This document shows positions 24,935 to 54,889 of a stretch of DNA of 64,000 bases, in pieces. Source of the DNA: Spartobacteria bacterium (GTDB lineage: Bacteria; Verrucomicrobiota; Verrucomicrobiia; Chthoniobacterales; UBA10450); NCBI GenBank assembly GCA_003169975.1, contig PNAA01000036.1:62001-126000 (forward strand), given 5' to 3'. The notes beneath the pieces are model-generated. The model did no database searches and was not told the DNA's origin. It saw only the letters and a list, made by a program, of their open reading frames with translations. The position numbers and the translations under genes are program-made. Position 1 is the first letter of the stretch. The number at the start of each line of letters is the position of its first letter.

Positions 24935-26731
24935 CTAGACTTTTTGCGCGAGCGATTTTTCGGGAGAACGGAAGCCGCGGGCGCGCACATCTTCCTCCCG
25001 GTGATAACGCTCGCGCGCGGCCAGAATGCTGGAGCGCCCGAGATAGCCAACGACCTTTTTTTCGTTCGCCCGCTCCACCACCGGCAAACGGCCGATGTCG
25101 TGCCTTAACATTCGCGCCACGGCGTCGTGCAAGGTCTCGTCGGGATAAGCGACGCGCAGGTTGGTCGATCCGGCAGCAAGGACGGTCAGCGTTTCATCGT
25201 GCGAACGGTCAAAGGCACGCACGACGTCGCCGCGGGTAACGATCCCGGTCAGCTCACCCTTCTCATTCGCCAGCAGTGTGCCCTGGTGCGAGCAGATGAG
25301 CGGGTCCCCACTCGCAATCCGCGCCGCAAAACGCGGCAGCGGCGTCGTCTCGGGAATGAGCGGCGGATCCGCTTCCATGACATCGCGCACGCGCATCAGC
25401 TCCAAAATGTCCACGCTGTATTCCCGCGCGATGTGCTGTCCGCGGCGCGCCAGCTTTTCGGTGAGAATGGATCGCTTCATAAGCAGCACCGTCACAGCGA
25501 GCCCGGCCACAGACCCGCAGAGCAACGCCGGCAGTGCGTTGATATCGCGGGTCAACTCCAGAAGGAAAAACATGCCTGTGAGCGGTGATCGCATCGTGCC
25601 GCCCATCATCGCCGCCATGCCGACCATGGCCCACAAACCAACGTCACCAACCGGGGCAAACTTCCCCAACCCAGCGCCGAGCGCGCCTCCGATAATGAGC
25701 AGCGGCGCGAGCACGCCGCCGGAAGTGCCGGAGCCCAGGGCGATCGACCAGACGACGGCCTTGCCGATCATCAAACCAATCAAAGCAGCGCCGAGGATTT
25801 CGCCCCGCAACATGCCGTGAATCAATTCATAACCGACCCCGAGGACGCGCGGATCGATCCAACCGCCGAAGCCGACAAAGACCGCGCCGATGGCCGGCCA
25901 CCACATCCAGTGAATAGGCAACTTTAGAAAAACGTCTTCACAGAAATAAACGATCACAGTGAGAAGGCCGGAGCCGAAGCCGGCCGCGATCCCAATCGCG
26001 CAGGCGATACCGATCTCGCTTGCGCCTAACGACGCATGTGGCGTGACAGGAAAAATGGGTCCGGCGCCGATGAGCGGAATGCGCAAAAGCCAGGCGACGA
26101 CCGACGCCACCGTCACGGGGATAAAGCTGCGCGGACGCCATTCGAAAAGAAGCAGCTCGACCGCGAGCAACGTCGCCGCGATGGGCGAAGCGAAAACCGC
26201 CGACATGCCGCCCGCCGCGCCAGCGACGAGCAGCGTCTTACGTTCCGCGGAACTGAGGTGAAACAATTGCGCGAAAATGGAGCCGAACGCTCCACCCGTC
26301 ATGATAATCGGGCCCTCCGCTCCAAACGGCCCGCCGGTTCCGATCGAGATGGCGGATGAAATCGGTTTGAGCAGCGCCACTTTCGGCTGAATCAAACTGC
26401 CGCCTAGCAGAATCGCTTCGAGTGCTTCGGGGATTCCGTGGCCACGGATCTTCTCCGAGCCGTAACGCGCCATCAGCCCGATGATGAGCGCGCCCGCGAC
26501 CGGCGCCAGAATCACCCACGCACCAAGATGATTATGCTCCAGCGAACCGAGAACCGGTGAAAAGCGCTGGAAGAAGACGAGATTCGTGATTTCAGCGATG
26601 AGCCAGAGCAACGCCTTGGCGACCAGGGCGCTGATCACGCCGACCGGCAACGCGAGCGCGACAAGCACGAGCATGCGCCTATCGGTGCGAAAATCACCGA
26701 GCAAAGTCTGCGAAGTTTTGCGGCCGGACAT
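24935..26731 (-). CDS. ClC-type chloride channel/antiporter with CBS pair
   Basis: 598 aa. Residues 20-430 are the ClC membrane core: GTGGPFGAEGPIIMTGG holds the G(K/R)EGP-like motif with the gating Glu (Ala replaces Arg), and LGSGTSGGVLAPLLIIGGA the second selectivity motif. Two CBS domains follow (MRVRDVMEADPPLIPETTPL and STNLRVAYPDETLHDAVARM), which sense adenine nucleotides. Motif wording GSGTSGG is typical of the prokaryotic CBS-bearing branch. The intracellular gating Glu cannot be placed by eye, so channel or H+/Cl- exchange remains open. TCGTTAGGC 9-mer at 26024. Confidence 0.92.
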   Translation of the reverse strand: MSGRKTSQTLLGDFRTDRRMLVLVALALPVGVISALVAKALLWLIAEITNLVFFQRFSPVLGSLEHNHLGAWVILAPVAGALIIGLMARYGSEKIRGHGIPEALEAILLGGSLIQPKVALLKPISSAISIGTGGPFGAEGPIIMTGGAFGSIFAQLFHLSSAERKTLLVAGAAGGMSAVFASPIAATLLAVELLLFEWRPRSFIPVTVASVVAWLLRIPLIGAGPIFPVTPHASLGASEIGIACAIGIAAGFGSGLLTVIVYFCEDVFLKLPIHWMWWPAIGAVFVGFGGWIDPRVLGVGYELIHGMLRGEILGAALIGLMIGKAVVWSIALGSGTSGGVLAPLLIIGGALGAGLGKFAPVGDVGLWAMVGMAAMMGGTMRSPLTGMFFLLELTRDINALPALLCGSVAGLAVTVLLMKRSILTEKLARRGQHIAREYSVDILELMRVRDVMEADPPLIPETTPLPRFAARIASGDPLICSHQGTLLANEKGELTGIVTRGDVVRAFDRSHDETLTVLAAGSTNLRVAYPDETLHDAVARMLRHDIGRLPVVERANEKKVVGYLGRSSILAARERYHREEDVRARGFRSPEKSLAQKV

Positions 26732-30083: not shown

Positions 30084-30278
30084 GGCTCCGCATATGTCGG
30101 GCATCTTTGGACGGCGCTCTGGGTCTACTTCACAGCGCCGGTGATCGCGATCCAGTCGGCGGCGATGGTTTACCTGTGGAGTAAGCGGGAGGTTTATTGC
30201 GCAAAATATCATCACCACAACAATGCCCGCTGCATTTTCAACCGTCGCTTCCCCGAGCCGGCGAAGCGCGAACTGTAG
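30084..30278 (+). pseudogene. C-terminal relic of a membrane channel-like (MIP/aquaporin-type) gene
   Basis: HLWTALWVYFTAPVIAIQSA followed by MVYLWSKREVYCAKYHHHNN and ARCIF resembles the last helix and His/Cys-rich tail of a group of bacterial aquaporin-like proteins, by recall only. No upstream NPA-type sequence remains. The frame ends with CTG TAG where the TAG belongs to the GTAG-headed palindrome at 30275. Confidence 0.4.
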
Positions 30279-30349
30279 CCGGGGTCGCTGACCCCGGCCC
30301 GTGGCTCTCAAACATGTTGCACGCTGCCGGGATCACCGATCCCGGCTAC
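30275..30349. repeat. Head-to-head pair of GTAG palindromes (REPIN-like, family A)
   Basis: The plus-strand unit is GTAG then GCCGGGGTC/GACCCCGGC with a 3-base loop (30275-30298). The minus-strand unit, GTAG then a GCCGGGATC/GATCCCGGC stem, ends at 30349. Two inverted units about 27 bases apart, each headed by GTAG, is the layout of REPINs made by RAYT transposases. One end supplies the stop codon of the relic at 30278; the other lies in the 3' end of the adenylate cyclase gene. Confidence 0.75.
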
Positions 30350-31780
30350 AACCGTGAAGCGATACGTTGGCACCATCTGAGACACGTGCTTGAATTCCAT
30401 CGGCTCAGTCCGTTCGAACTCGACCTGCCTTTCCCCCGGGAGCATTTCGTAGAATGGCTCGCTTACCAGGATCTGCCATTTCCCGGCACGATCGCAGAGG
30501 CGCGAGGCCAGGTTCACGGTGTGGCCGATGGCGGTAAAGTCACGCCGCGTATCGGAACCGATCGACCCGACCACTGCGCGGCCCCGATGGATGCCGACGC
30601 CGAGGGCCAGCGGCCAGCCTTCCGCCTCGATCTCCTCCCGGATGGCCGCGACCAATTCCTGCGCGCAGGCGAACACTTTCTCGGCGGAACCTTCGCCGCC
30701 CAGAAAAACCGCCATCACCGCGTCCCCAATGAATTTGTCCACGTCGCCGCCGGCCGAGACGACCGCGTCCGCCTGGACTGCGAGGAGCCGGTTGAGCTCG
30801 CGCACCAGGAAGGAGGCTTCGCGCGTCTCGCACCAGCTGGTGAAGCCGCGCAGATCGGCAAAGAGCACGATCACCTCCTGTTCCATGCCGGCGAGCCATT
30901 GCGGATCCTTCCTGCTCCGGCGCACCGCCTCCGCGGTGAAGCGCGAGACATAGGGCAGCAGTGCGAGCTTTTCGCCTAACGAGATTATCATTTCGTTGAA
31001 TACGTCGCCCAGGTGTTGCAGTTCGTCGCCGGTCGTCACGCTCACCTGCACGTCATTTTCCCCGGCTTGGAATCGCCGGATGCCCGAAGAAAGTTTGTTC
31101 AGTCCACGCGTGATGTTGCGGGCGAGGAGCAGGCCCGGAATCATGGCGACAAAAAACGCGCCGCAGCCGATCGCCAGCGCGAGCAAAAGCTCCTCCCGCT
31201 GGCGCGCGACGAACCGGCTGATTTGCGCGTCCGCTTCGACGATCGCAACTGGCTCTCCGGCCTGATTAAGGATCGGCCCGTAGCCGCTGATCCAGGTGCC
31301 ATTCTCGTCCTCATAAACGTCGCTGCTCGTTGGCGTGCGCATTTTCCAAGCCTTGAGGAAATGCTCGCGATTGGCCTCCAACAGAATGTAGCGAGTGCCA
31401 ATGAATGTCTTCTTCTGCAACATCACGACGAATTCCGTTTCCAACGAGGAAGCCGCACCCACCGGGCGCAGGATGTACATTTCATTTTCCGCGAGGCCGT
31501 TGATCCGGCGGGATTGATCGAGAATTGTCCTCGCCTTTTGGAAGGCCGGCGAACTGGAGTCGTTAGGCGCGCGGATCAAGTTGATCTCGTCGCCATTCAG
31601 GGCCAGCGCGGTCGTCCCGGCCGCGCTCCGGACAAAGGCCTGGAATTCCTGCAGGAGTTGCGCGCGCCGGAGATGGTAGTTGGTGCCGAGAATTGCCGCC
31701 ACGACCAGCGCCGCCACAATCGCCATGGCGAAGGCGACTTTGGTGCGAAGCGAAAAACGATGAAATGGAACGACGGGCAT
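30308..31780 (-). CDS. Membrane-bound adenylate/guanylate cyclase (class III) with HAMP
   Basis: 490 aa. TM1 about 15-35, an outer sensor region (40-195) with GYGPILNQAGEPVAIVEADA typical of single-cache-like sensors, TM2 about 200-222, HAMP, then a class III cyclase domain: VLFADLRGFTSWCET and GGDVDKFIGDAVMAVF give the two metal Asp, FTAIGHTVNLASRL the transition-state Asn/Arg. It makes cAMP (or cGMP) from nucleoside triphosphate. The last 15 residues, VVAGIGDPGS onward, are encoded by the GTAG palindrome at 30326-30349, so the C-terminus was rewritten by that element. TCGTTAGGC 9-mers at 30974 and 31560. Confidence 0.9.
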   Translation of the reverse strand: MPVVPFHRFSLRTKVAFAMAIVAALVVAAILGTNYHLRRAQLLQEFQAFVRSAAGTTALALNGDEINLIRAPNDSSSPAFQKARTILDQSRRINGLAENEMYILRPVGAASSLETEFVVMLQKKTFIGTRYILLEANREHFLKAWKMRTPTSSDVYEDENGTWISGYGPILNQAGEPVAIVEADAQISRFVARQREELLLALAIGCGAFFVAMIPGLLLARNITRGLNKLSSGIRRFQAGENDVQVSVTTGDELQHLGDVFNEMIISLGEKLALLPYVSRFTAEAVRRSRKDPQWLAGMEQEVIVLFADLRGFTSWCETREASFLVRELNRLLAVQADAVVSAGGDVDKFIGDAVMAVFLGGEGSAEKVFACAQELVAAIREEIEAEGWPLALGVGIHRGRAVVGSIGSDTRRDFTAIGHTVNLASRLCDRAGKWQILVSEPFYEMLPGERQVEFERTEPMEFKHVSQMVPTYRFTVVAGIGDPGSVQHV

Positions 31781-31867: not shown

Positions 31868-31890
31868 ATAGCCGGGGGCGCTGACCCCGG
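31868..31890. repeat. Single family A palindrome (decayed GTAG head)
   Basis: ATAG followed by GCCGGGGGC GCT GACCCCGG, the same stem as at 30278 with one mismatch and ATAG instead of GTAG. It separates the cyclase promoter from the VOC relic. Confidence 0.65.
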
Positions 31891-32214: not shown

Positions 32215-32297
32215 GTAGCCGGTCGCGCTGAGGCCGGCTCGGAGCAAACGCGCGCGCTGGCGATGGCGAAGCGGCCGGAGTCAACGCCCCCGGCTAC
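32215..32297. repeat. Head-to-head pair of GTAG palindromes (REPIN-like, family A)
   Basis: Left unit GTAGCCGG at 32215 on the plus strand, right unit GTAGCCGGGGGCG on the minus strand ending at 32297, about 83 bases in all; the left stem is more decayed than the right. The right TAG is the stop codon of the FMN reductase gene (32294-32296). Confidence 0.7.
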
Positions 32298-32869
32298 AAC
32301 GCCGGAATATTTTCCCGGGCGAAACGCAGCGCGCACGCCATCCAGACGAGCTCGTCGACGAATTTCTTGAGTCGCCCGACGTAGGCTGGATCGGTGATAT
32401 TTCCCGTCGCCGAATCGAACAACTTGCCGGCCGTCCCGAAGTAGACATCCCAGAAGATCGTGACCAGGCCCAACTCGCGCAGAACCGGCAACAAACTTTG
32501 AATCATGCGCGCGCCGCCGAAGGGCCCGGCCGAGACGCCGCAGACGCCGGCGGCTTTGTGAAGGTATTCCTTCAGGTTGCTGTCGAGCACATGCTTGAGC
32601 AGGCCGGGAAAGCTGTGGTTGTACTCGGGCACGACGAGGATGAGTCCATCCGCGCGACTGACCGCCGCGGAAAATTGCGCATCTTTGAGCGCCTCGCCCG
32701 CGTCATCGAGCGAGAGCCGGAGGTTGCGGATGTCGATCAATTCGGTCGTCATGTCGGGCCGCTTGGAAACCTCTTCGAAGACAAAACGGGCGGCGTGTTC
32801 GCTCATGCGACCCTGGCGCGCGGTGCCGAGAATAACGGGAAGAAAGACAGGTTGAGTGATCGATTCCAT
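32294..32869 (-). CDS. NADPH-dependent FMN reductase family protein
   Basis: 191 aa. PVILGTARQGRMSEHAARFV is the phosphate-binding loop, LILVVPEYNHSFPGLLKHVL the PEYN motif contacting FMN, and GVSAGPFGGARMIQSLLPVL the third FMN segment. Small flavodoxin-like oxidoreductase, cytosolic. Its stop TAG is part of the palindrome element at 32215-32297. Confidence 0.88.
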   Translation of the reverse strand: MESITQPVFLPVILGTARQGRMSEHAARFVFEEVSKRPDMTTELIDIRNLRLSLDDAGEALKDAQFSAAVSRADGLILVVPEYNHSFPGLLKHVLDSNLKEYLHKAAGVCGVSAGPFGGARMIQSLLPVLRELGLVTIFWDVYFGTAGKLFDSATGNITDPAYVGRLKKFVDELVWMACALRFARENIPAL

Positions 32870-52127: not shown

Positions 52128-52214
52128 ACGCTTCGCTCCGCGAAGCGCGGGGAAAGGCTCGCTCGTTCCAAAAATCATCGCGCAGGCCCGCGCCGCCCTG
52201 AGGGCGACGTCTAC
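52124..52214. repeat. REPIN-like pair (family B) that ends both flanking genes
   Basis: Left unit: ATAGACGC TTCGCT/CGAAGCG stem (52124-52147). Right unit, minus strand: GTAGACG then CGCCCT/AGGGCG stem, ending at 52214. The left TAG (52125-52127) is the stop codon of the M50 protease; the right TAG (52211-52213) is the stop codon of the convergent aminopeptidase. The element therefore forms the whole 3' intergenic region of both genes. Confidence 0.8.
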
Positions 52215-54889
52215 GGGGCTTCCATCCACGCGCGCAACTGCGGCAGAAGCCGTTGCTTGAATTCCGCGCGGAAGCCGATCTCGTCGACCGTTTTCTCCAC
52301 TGCCCTGGCAGCGGATGACGGGAGATGCGCCTTCGCGTAGCTCTGGAGCGTCGCGGCATCCTTCACATCGGAGGAGAAGCTAAACAGACCGGCAGCGAAG
52401 CTGTTGATGCCCAGCGCATCCTGTTTCGCGAGGAGCTCCTTCATGTGCTCCCGGGCAAACACCCAGACCAGGTCCGGACGCTCGCTCTGCCGCGCGGCGA
52501 AGGGGAGCAACAGAGCCGCGCGGCTGGTCGATAGTTCATCAGTGAGAGCGAGCGGGATCGTCCGCTTTACGAGCTTGGGATCAATCGCGCCGGCGAGCGC
52601 CTCGTAATAATTTTGTTTCTCTTCCGTGCTCGTCGTTTTCAAACCGAGCCGGTGCAGTTTTTCCCACGTACGGAAGTCGGCGTAACGACCGACGACTGCG
52701 AAGATGGTCGGGCGCAAATCAGGTCCCACCGCCGCGGGATCGGAAAGGAACCGATCAAAACGCGAGCGGCAACCCGCGATGATATCGGAATCGTTCAGCA
52801 CGCCGAGACCGCGAATCAACGAGGCGCGCAGAAACGTCCGCGACGACGGCTCGCCCGGTTTCGCCTCCCAGCCGACGCGATCGAACGCGGGTCGCAAAAC
52901 AGTGCGGGCGTATTGCTGGAAGCGTGGTCGCGCCGGGTCTCCGGCAAGCAGCCGGTTGATCAAAGTGAAGGTGTCGATGACCTGATCGTAGACCGCCAAC
53001 TGATCGTCCTTCGTGAGCTGATTGACGAGACCGAGGTAATGCGAGAGCGGCTTGCGGTTTGCCTCGACCAATGCCCAGGCATCGATCAGCAAGTTCACGC
53101 GGTCGGCTTCCGAAAGATTTCCCAACTGCGCGACGAGCAATTCCCAGGAAGCGTCGTCGTACTCGACGCGATAGTAACCAGCATCCTCGACGTTCAACTT
53201 GATTGCGCGATTGTCCGGCAGTTCGTTAGGCAAATCCGCCGCCGGTTCGCGCAGGAGGAAACCGGCCGTCGCAGGTTGATCTTCGGTTACGTAGGTGAGC
53301 GGAATCTGCCATTCAAGTGCCGGCGGGTTCGGGAAATGCACCGTGAAGCGCTCTTGCGTGAGCTTGATGGTGTTTCCGTCCCGCGCCACTTTCACGAGCG
53401 GAAATCCAGGCTGCTGCGTCCAGCCGGGCGCGATTTCCCCCACCGGCTTGCCCGAGACTTCCGTCAGCGCCTGCCAGAGGTCCGCGGTCGTGGTGTTCGA
53501 GTATTGGTGCGCCGCGATATATTTGCGGATGCCGCTGCGAAAGACATCTTCCCCGAGAAAGCTCTCGATCATCCGGATGATCGACTGGCCTTTTTTATAG
53601 GTGATTTCGTCGAAGGCGCTGCCCGCTTCCGCCTCGGTCGCGATCGGCTGCTGCACGGGATGCGTCGTCGAGCGCGCATCGGATTGCATCGCGGTGTCCT
53701 TGGGGAAACCGATCCGCCGGCTCGGATCGCGCGACACATTGCGGCGCAGCCATTCATTCCACTCCGGGTTAAAATGGTCGGTGCATTTCGAGCCCATCCA
53801 GGAGGCAAAGCCTTCGTTCAACCAGAGATTGTCCCACCACGCCATCGTGACGAGATCGCCAAACCATTGGTGCGCCATCTCGTGCGCGATGACCGCGAAA
53901 ATATCCTGCTTCGTTCCGGCCGAGGAATTCTTCGGATCGAAAAGCAGGACCGACTCGTAATAGGTGATGCCGCCCCAGTTTTCCATCGCGCCACCGAAGC
54001 CGCCCGGGATGGCGATCAGGTCGAGCTTGGGCAACGGATAAGGCACACCGAAATATTCGTTGTAGTAGTGGAGAATCTTGGCCTCGCTCTCGAGCGCGTA
54101 CCGGCCCATCTCCGCTTTGCCCTTGGTCGCGACGACGCGCAGTTTCACGCCGTCCTCTTCGGCGTCGATCGACTCGAGCTCGCCGGCCACGAGCACGACG
54201 AGATAACTCGACATCGACGGCGAGAAGGCGAAGCGCACTTCCTTGCTACCTGCGGGCCCTTGGGGACCGGGGTCAGCGACCCCGGCTACAACGGCCTCGC
54301 TCTCCACGGGCATGTTTGAGACCGCCGTGAAGTTTTTTGGGACCACCGCGGTGAGCTGAAACCGCGCGCGGAAACTGGGCTCATCCCAGCAGGGGAACAT
54401 CCGTCGCGCATCGGTCGCCTCGAACTGGGTCCCGAGCATGAGTTTCTTGTCGTTGGTCCCCTGCTCCTGATAGCGGGCGTAGAAAAGCCCCTGCCCTTGC
54501 GCGTTGATTTTTCCGCTGAACTTGAGCGCCAATTGATGCTCGCCCGCCGCCAACTCGTTAGGCAAGGTGAGCGTCAGCGTTTGCTCCGCCTCGTTCAGCG
54601 CGATCGCTTTTTTGGGCAGCGGTTGGTCGTCGACGGACGCGGCCGAGATCTCCATCTCGAGCGCGTTGAGCACGATCTTGGTGACTGCTTCTTGCACCTT
54701 TAGTTTGACCGTTTCCGAACCGGTGAAAGTGAGCTTCTCAACATCCGGGACGATCCGAATCGCGTACTCGGCTGGCAGCACATCCTTCGGCAGTTTCCCC
54801 GGCGTGGTCGCGAAATTGAATTTGGTTTCGGCAGTCACGCGAGACGAGAGAACGAAGAAAAGGAGAAAAGCGGAAGCGAGATAACGCAT
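52211..54889 (-). CDS. M1-family zinc aminopeptidase, exported
   Basis: 892 aa from ATG 54889 with a signal peptide (MRYLASAFLLFFVLSSRVTA). GGAMENWGGITYYES (exopeptidase motif, about 300) and HEMAHQWFGDLVTMAWWDNL, then WLNEGFASW (zinc His, His, Glu and catalytic Glu, about 336-360) are intact, and the C-terminal ERAP1-like helical domain is present. Hydrolyses N-terminal residues of peptides, here outside the cytosol. Residues about 199-207, VVAGVADPG, are an insertion encoded by the GTAG palindrome at 54269-54291, in a loop after VESEA; the core is not disturbed. Confidence 0.93.
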   Translation of the reverse strand: MRYLASAFLLFFVLSSRVTAETKFNFATTPGKLPKDVLPAEYAIRIVPDVEKLTFTGSETVKLKVQEAVTKIVLNALEMEISAASVDDQPLPKKAIALNEAEQTLTLTLPNELAAGEHQLALKFSGKINAQGQGLFYARYQEQGTNDKKLMLGTQFEATDARRMFPCWDEPSFRARFQLTAVVPKNFTAVSNMPVESEAVVAGVADPGPQGPAGSKEVRFAFSPSMSSYLVVLVAGELESIDAEEDGVKLRVVATKGKAEMGRYALESEAKILHYYNEYFGVPYPLPKLDLIAIPGGFGGAMENWGGITYYESVLLFDPKNSSAGTKQDIFAVIAHEMAHQWFGDLVTMAWWDNLWLNEGFASWMGSKCTDHFNPEWNEWLRRNVSRDPSRRIGFPKDTAMQSDARSTTHPVQQPIATEAEAGSAFDEITYKKGQSIIRMIESFLGEDVFRSGIRKYIAAHQYSNTTTADLWQALTEVSGKPVGEIAPGWTQQPGFPLVKVARDGNTIKLTQERFTVHFPNPPALEWQIPLTYVTEDQPATAGFLLREPAADLPNELPDNRAIKLNVEDAGYYRVEYDDASWELLVAQLGNLSEADRVNLLIDAWALVEANRKPLSHYLGLVNQLTKDDQLAVYDQVIDTFTLINRLLAGDPARPRFQQYARTVLRPAFDRVGWEAKPGEPSSRTFLRASLIRGLGVLNDSDIIAGCRSRFDRFLSDPAAVGPDLRPTIFAVVGRYADFRTWEKLHRLGLKTTSTEEKQNYYEALAGAIDPKLVKRTIPLALTDELSTSRAALLLPFAARQSERPDLVWVFAREHMKELLAKQDALGINSFAAGLFSFSSDVKDAATLQSYAKAHLPSSAARAVEKTVDEIGFRAEFKQRLLPQLRAWMEAP
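54269..54291 (-). repeat. Family A GTAG palindrome, in frame inside the aminopeptidase gene
   Basis: On the minus strand GTAG then CCGGGGTC GCT GACCCCGG, the same stem as at 30278. It lies within the coding sequence and adds VAGVADPG, the same peptide reading as at the cyclase C-terminus (VAGIGDPG). The frame stays open because 24-base insertions preserve it. Confidence 0.8.

Follow-up and report, generated by a model that had tools for sequence, protein, structure and literature searches.

REPs carrying a GTAG or a CGTC tag were defined by Di Nocera, De Gregorio and Rocco in 2013, who also listed intragenic REPs in several species (PMC3733652). Intragenic GTAG REPs were most numerous in Opitutus terrae (Verrucomicrobia); the intragenic hosts named in that study include tRNA synthetases, helicases, pseudouridine synthases and repair genes, and REP inserts in loops were regarded as possibly neutral (PMC3733652). 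The REP of Stenotrophomonas maltophilia is 23 nt long, with a GTAG tag, an 8-bp perfect palindrome and a GCT loop, and RAYTs recognize the GTAG tag and hairpin in single-stranded DNA and cut at an adjacent CT (PMC8266576). The REPINs of Pseudomonas fluorescens SBW25 are head-to-head REP pairs that form a long hairpin, have an associated RAYT and are nearly all extragenic (PMC3116915). Among the Rickettsia palindromic elements (RPEs), RPE-4 and RPE-6 are related to the CGTC superfamily, whose REPs lack a dedicated transposase (PMC3733652), and RPE-1 is a longer element.

We analysed a 64,000-nucleotide stretch (the window) of a draft assembly of 59 contigs, called G000, from a bacterium whose nearest relatives belong to the Chthoniobacterales (Verrucomicrobiota). 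A palindrome within an M1 aminopeptidase gene of the window is a further case of the intragenic GTAG REPs described in 2013 (PMC3733652). As in O. terrae, short tagged palindromes, single or head-to-head, occur in frame in unrelated genes of a member of the same phylum, and the host types again include tRNA synthetases, helicases and tRNA-modification genes. The species and the genes differ, and the likeness is one of description rather than of compared consensus sequences. The REP architecture resembles that of the S. maltophilia REPtron Sm (group 3 TnpA_REP) in its length, GTAG tag, stem length and loop, and both systems have a tyrosine HUH transposase with its own REPs as flanks, the verrucomicrobial one being a candidate identified from sequence.

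Head-to-head pairs with a long hairpin and an associated RAYT also recall the SBW25 REPINs. Whereas those are nearly all extragenic, 29 copies of the present family lie in called ORFs of the surveyed stretches, and the copy in the M1 gene is a singlet. The earlier note had likened the palindrome to RPEs, with which it shares the occurrence of palindromic repeats in frame in many unrelated proteins. This likeness is apt as an analogy only, and does not extend to kinship, because the verrucomicrobial REP belongs to the GTAG superfamily, has a GTAG rather than a CGTC tag and has an identifiable RAYT in a congener.

A GTAG-type REP within an M1 aminopeptidase gene

The host gene, the REP and the segments derived from it have the following coordinates in the window.

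52211 to 54889, minus strand: M1-family aminopeptidase gene that hosts the REP, with a signal-peptide-like N-terminus and an HEMAH...E zinc site
54267 to 54289, minus strand: GTAG-type REP of 23 nt, made up of GTAG, a stem (CCGGGGTC/GACCCCGG) and a GCT loop
54266 to 54289, minus strand: codons 201–208 of the aminopeptidase, from the REP, encoding VAGVADPG
about 54260 to 54292, minus strand: net insertion relative to congeners, 33 bp, encoding VVAGVADPGPQ, as estimated from the alignment

The gene encodes a protein of 892 amino acids with all three M1 domains, namely Peptidase_M1 (1.5e-76), M1_N and ERAP1_C, and the REP lies mid-gene, roughly 600 nt after the start. On the minus strand, GTAG occupies positions 54289–54286 and is followed by CCGGGGTC-GCT-GACCCCGG at positions 54285–54267, with a perfect stem of 8 bp, a loop of 3 nt and an exact match to the family consensus. 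Codons 201–208 (GTA GCC GGG GTC GCT GAC CCC GGT) read VAGVADPG, and the in-frame palindrome of the earlier note is therefore confirmed, with its coordinates (54269–54291) corrected by 2 nt. The palindrome is not a multiple of three in length, as had been supposed, given that it spans 23 nt; compared with congeners, the gene has a net gain of 33 bp. The element has no partner within approximately 90 bp, and is thus a singlet rather than one of the two inverted REPs that make up a REPIN.

The repeat family in the window and the genome

The window contains five sites with at most three mismatches to the pattern, compared with 0.63 expected, and none of 100 shuffles reaches five. The entire 4.47-Mb genome carries 129 copies at two or fewer mismatches, compared with 4 for a reversed-pattern control. 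The palindrome in the M1 gene is a repeat, not a product of chance. When up to three mismatches are allowed, the GTAG-tagged pattern has 96 and 90 copies on the two strands of the genome, and 18 genome copies have no mismatch. Among 90 aligned copies, which were selected for GTAG, conservation covers (C/T)T, GTAG, the stem, loop and stem, and one or two bases beyond, and nothing further. Congeners carry 43 (G002), 20 (G003), 3 (G004) and 0 (G001) copies at up to one mismatch.

These repeats have the features of the GTAG REP superfamily: an unpaired GTAG at one end of a 20–40 bp stem-loop, many dispersed copies, a mostly intergenic location (outside called ORFs for 81 of the 112 sites in stretches fetched around REPs) and, in congener G002, association with a RAYT. 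Close pairs in the fetched stretches are mostly head-to-head. About 12 copies are clustered within roughly 27 kb of one contig of G000 (C5:262000-289000).

Other members of the family in the window, together with one gene that they enter, are as follows.

30275 to 30349, no strand assigned: head-to-head REP pair (REPIN-like) of 75 bp that straddles the 3′ end of the adenylate cyclase gene
30308 to 31780, minus strand: adenylate/guanylate cyclase with HAMP and Guanylate_cyc domains, whose C-terminus enters the REP pair
31868 to 31890, plus strand: decayed REP ATAGCCGGGGGCGCTGACCCCGG, outside called genes
32275 to 32297, minus strand: decayed REP GTAGCCGGGGGCGTTGACTCCGG, overlapping the 3′ end of ORF 32294-32869

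The right arm of the pair encodes VAGIGDPG near the cyclase C-terminus, where that peptide had previously been noticed. The TAG stop of ORF 32294-32869 lies within the GTAG of the decayed REP that overlaps it.

Empty and occupied sites in M1 orthologues

Among about a hundred M1 homologue loci, a set in which some contigs are present twice, only those of the window and of G002 carry the REP peptide. The orthologues of G004, G003 and G001, which are 72–78% identical, lack 11 residues (33 bp) at this site, such that the window protein reads ESEAVVAGVADPGPQGPAGSKEVRF where they read, for example, EEEKKIDG-GKEVRF. The G002 orthologue is occupied at the corresponding codon by a diverged REP that has a stem mismatch and encodes VAGGGDPG (protein ETTVAGGGDPGGEKSSGRKEVRF, DNA GTAGCCGGGGGCGGTGACCCCGG), and the spacer that follows the peptide is unrelated between the two proteins. 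Because the REP occupies the same codon in both, the insertion probably predates the split of G000 and G002. The simplest reading of the sequences is probably a single insertion before this split followed by divergence, and two separate insertions at one codon may be an alternative. Divergence of the loop codons on either side has blurred both the insertion ends and the target site. This alignment, which the earlier note had called for, brought up no REP-free homologue with the peptide.

The REP site is a non-conserved, length-variable position of the alignment. Five homologues from other genera (L061, L082, L031, L075 and L076) have long unrelated inserts at the same loop, which indicates that the loop tolerates changes in length. 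Within the L061 insert, GTAGCGATCCCGCGGTTGCGGGA may be a weak palindrome, and its exact sequence occurs once in that genome. For L061, the only insert so considered, identity as a REP is not supported, as there are few genome copies even at three mismatches.

An AlphaFold model of the aminopeptidase (mean pLDDT 87.9, pTM 0.87) matches the fold of puromycin-sensitive aminopeptidase (PSA) and ERAP1. The REP peptide lies in a turn that connects strands 195–201 and 215–220 of the N-terminal beta domain, with a pLDDT below 50 at residues 205–212. Low model confidence and the alignment suggest that the peptide is surface-exposed. Thus, of the surface loop that had been proposed to precede KEVRFAFSPS, the model provides the flexible loop, and exposure is inferred. 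The zinc site (H336, E337, H340 and E359) is invariant in the alignment and more than 120 residues away from the peptide in sequence.

A candidate transposase and the proposed origin of the insert

Congener G002 encodes a RAYT that scores 99.2 bits to NCBIfam NF047646 (cut-off 80; L294:1111-1623), with an HVH motif and a SYAQKWNYVREN tyrosine motif visible in its sequence. A head-to-head pair of CCGGGGTC-type REPs lies upstream of this gene and another copy lies downstream, the GTAG of which supplies the stop codon of the RAYT. Judged by its sequence, the locus (L294:1030-1646) resembles a textbook REPtron, and its RAYT is a candidate for the cognate transposase of the family. In the verrucomicrobial REP, a conserved (C/T)T immediately precedes GTAG and suggests cleavage at CT here as well.

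None of the RAYT candidates found in the window's own draft genome is flanked by CCGGGGTC-type REPs, and the nearest of them are 45–47% identical to the G002 protein. One, on contig C18 (103 bits to NF047646, cut-off 80; locus L133, C18:55547-58867, positions 1175–2001), is flanked by head-to-head pairs of two other GTAG REP families. These GTAGCC families (CCGCTTCG... and CCGTCGCC...) correspond to TGTAGCCGTCGCCCTGTGGGCGACGC and TTGTAGCCGCTTCGCTGTGCGAAGCG, the latter with about 72 genome matches per strand at up to three mismatches, many of them as GTAGACGCTTCGC. A search for REP flanks around another RAYT, on contig C36, found none. The family may be orphaned in this genome, may be moved by a related RAYT, or may have a RAYT that is missing from the draft. 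Present mobility in this genome is unproven, because no close RAYT with these REP flanks was found there.

We assign a probability of roughly 0.9 to the reading that the palindrome in the M1 gene is a GTAG-tagged REP, a miniature non-autonomous mobile element moved by a RAYT/TnpA_REP, that is carried as a tolerated passenger. In this mechanism, a RAYT would nick single-stranded REP DNA at a site specified by GTAG, and would have joined the REP into the M1 gene of an ancestor shared by G000 and G002. The insert would have survived because, in the sense orientation, the TAG in GTAG and a frequent TGA leave frame 0 as the main open one. Its survival would also have been favoured by a Gly/Pro/Asp-rich peptide, VAGVADPG, that suits a turn, and by a loop that tolerates length change. 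The M1 protein most likely derives no function from the peptide.

It is unlikely that the REP instead works within the gene as a nucleic acid, for example as an mRNA hairpin, as a binding site for gyrase or another protein, or in attenuation, with coding being incidental. The fold of the single-stranded DNA is strong (a 32-nt stretch at −9.6 kcal/mol, z −3.6), and in other bacteria REPs have roles at the mRNA or DNA level (PMC3733652). However, a terminator-like effect in the middle of the gene would be harmful, and the G002 copy has a mismatched stem.

REPs in other genes

The survey of genes covered stretches of sequence fetched around REP copies. Of the 112 sites in them, 31 fall within called ORFs, or 29 once two false matches of low quality (L167:260 and window position 25226) are removed. 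By Pfam and NCBIfam assignment, genes with in-frame REPs include leuS, proS, mnmA, miaB, ygfZ, ispG (IspG/GcpE), two ABC-F genes, a proteasome ATPase (mpa), a Hel308/Ski2-like helicase, tamB and others, and the earlier suggestion that the palindrome can spread into proteins is borne out well beyond the aminopeptidase. The intragenic REPs are either single or, as in leuS, ispG, ABC-F and the helicase, head-to-head pairs that read VAGxxDPG-spacer-AGVxxPGY. Where an orthologue was found, the REP segment is absent from congener LeuS, MiaB, MnmA, TamB, proteasome ATPase, helicase and YgfZ. Searches of the genome with LeuS, ProS, MnmA and IspG gave one full-strength match each, and the REP-tagged enzymes are therefore apparently the sole copies. 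The M1 gene, which had been singled out as essential-looking, is accordingly not the notable host.

All ten sense-oriented REPs located more than 20 codons inside ORFs are in frame 0. This is the sole open frame in six of them, because GTAG gives TAG and the loop junction often gives TGA. Antisense copies are in frame 1 in 9 of 12 cases; selection for AGVxxPGY was considered for these and dropped, since five come from pairs in which the frame is linked to the sense copy and the remaining singles divide 4 to 3.

Sites in ring-hydroxylase, ABC-F1, epimerase, SDF and molybdopterin-oxidoreductase genes were left uncounted as insertions, owing to a variable linker, a variable N-terminus or the absence of a length change. 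In the ring-hydroxylase gene (REP at L173:2380-2402), congener proteins are equally long at this place, so the REP either took the place of existing sequence or entered together with a deletion that offset its length. At the site of the miaB REP, the G004 gene (L241) instead contains an unrelated insert of greater length, in what is another tolerant loop.

Seven of about 20 REP-bearing ORFs examined are tied to tRNA or translation: LeuS (L182), ProS (L186), MnmA (L210), MiaB (L183), YgfZ (L168) and two ABC-F proteins (L176 and L189). This recalls the intragenic hosts named in the 2013 study (PMC3733652), but it may reflect how long or how strongly expressed such genes are, or which stretches were fetched. 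We consider it quite improbable that REP insertion in this lineage favours translation and tRNA-modification genes and that some inserts, older than the divergence of two species, were retained for a tuning effect on the enzymes.

G002 shares its REP insert with G000 in four genes (M1, proS, ispG and one ABC-F), a pattern that could be taken to mean that the peptide has been co-opted, either because it matters for the aminopeptidase or because it confers a shared property on REP-tagged proteins, such as a binding epitope. The preserved codon position and the intact VAG..DPG frame in the M1 genes of both genomes agree with this proposal, but retention of the frame is needed in any case to keep the gene. 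The peptide itself varies (VAGVADPG versus VAGGGDPG) next to an unrelated spacer, other congeners manage without it, and it occupies a non-conserved loop of low model confidence, all of which make co-option very unlikely. Finally, neither coincidence nor an error of assembly or ORF calling, to which a draft genome might be prone, is a credible source of the palindrome, given the exact family consensus, the 129 copies against 4 in the control, the conserved M1 domains on both sides of the REP and the copy at the same codon of a separately assembled congener.

Implications for REP-bearing proteins

The REP in the M1 gene is a clean example of a mobile palindrome becoming protein sequence. The filled site can be set beside orthologues whose site is empty and a sister species that has both a diverged REP at this codon and a candidate transposase. 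Apparently single-copy leuS, proS, mnmA and ispG are tagged as well, and REP-coded peptides are therefore compatible with working essential enzymes. In these proteins, VAG(V/G/I)xDPG is the signature of a repeat, not a conserved functional motif.
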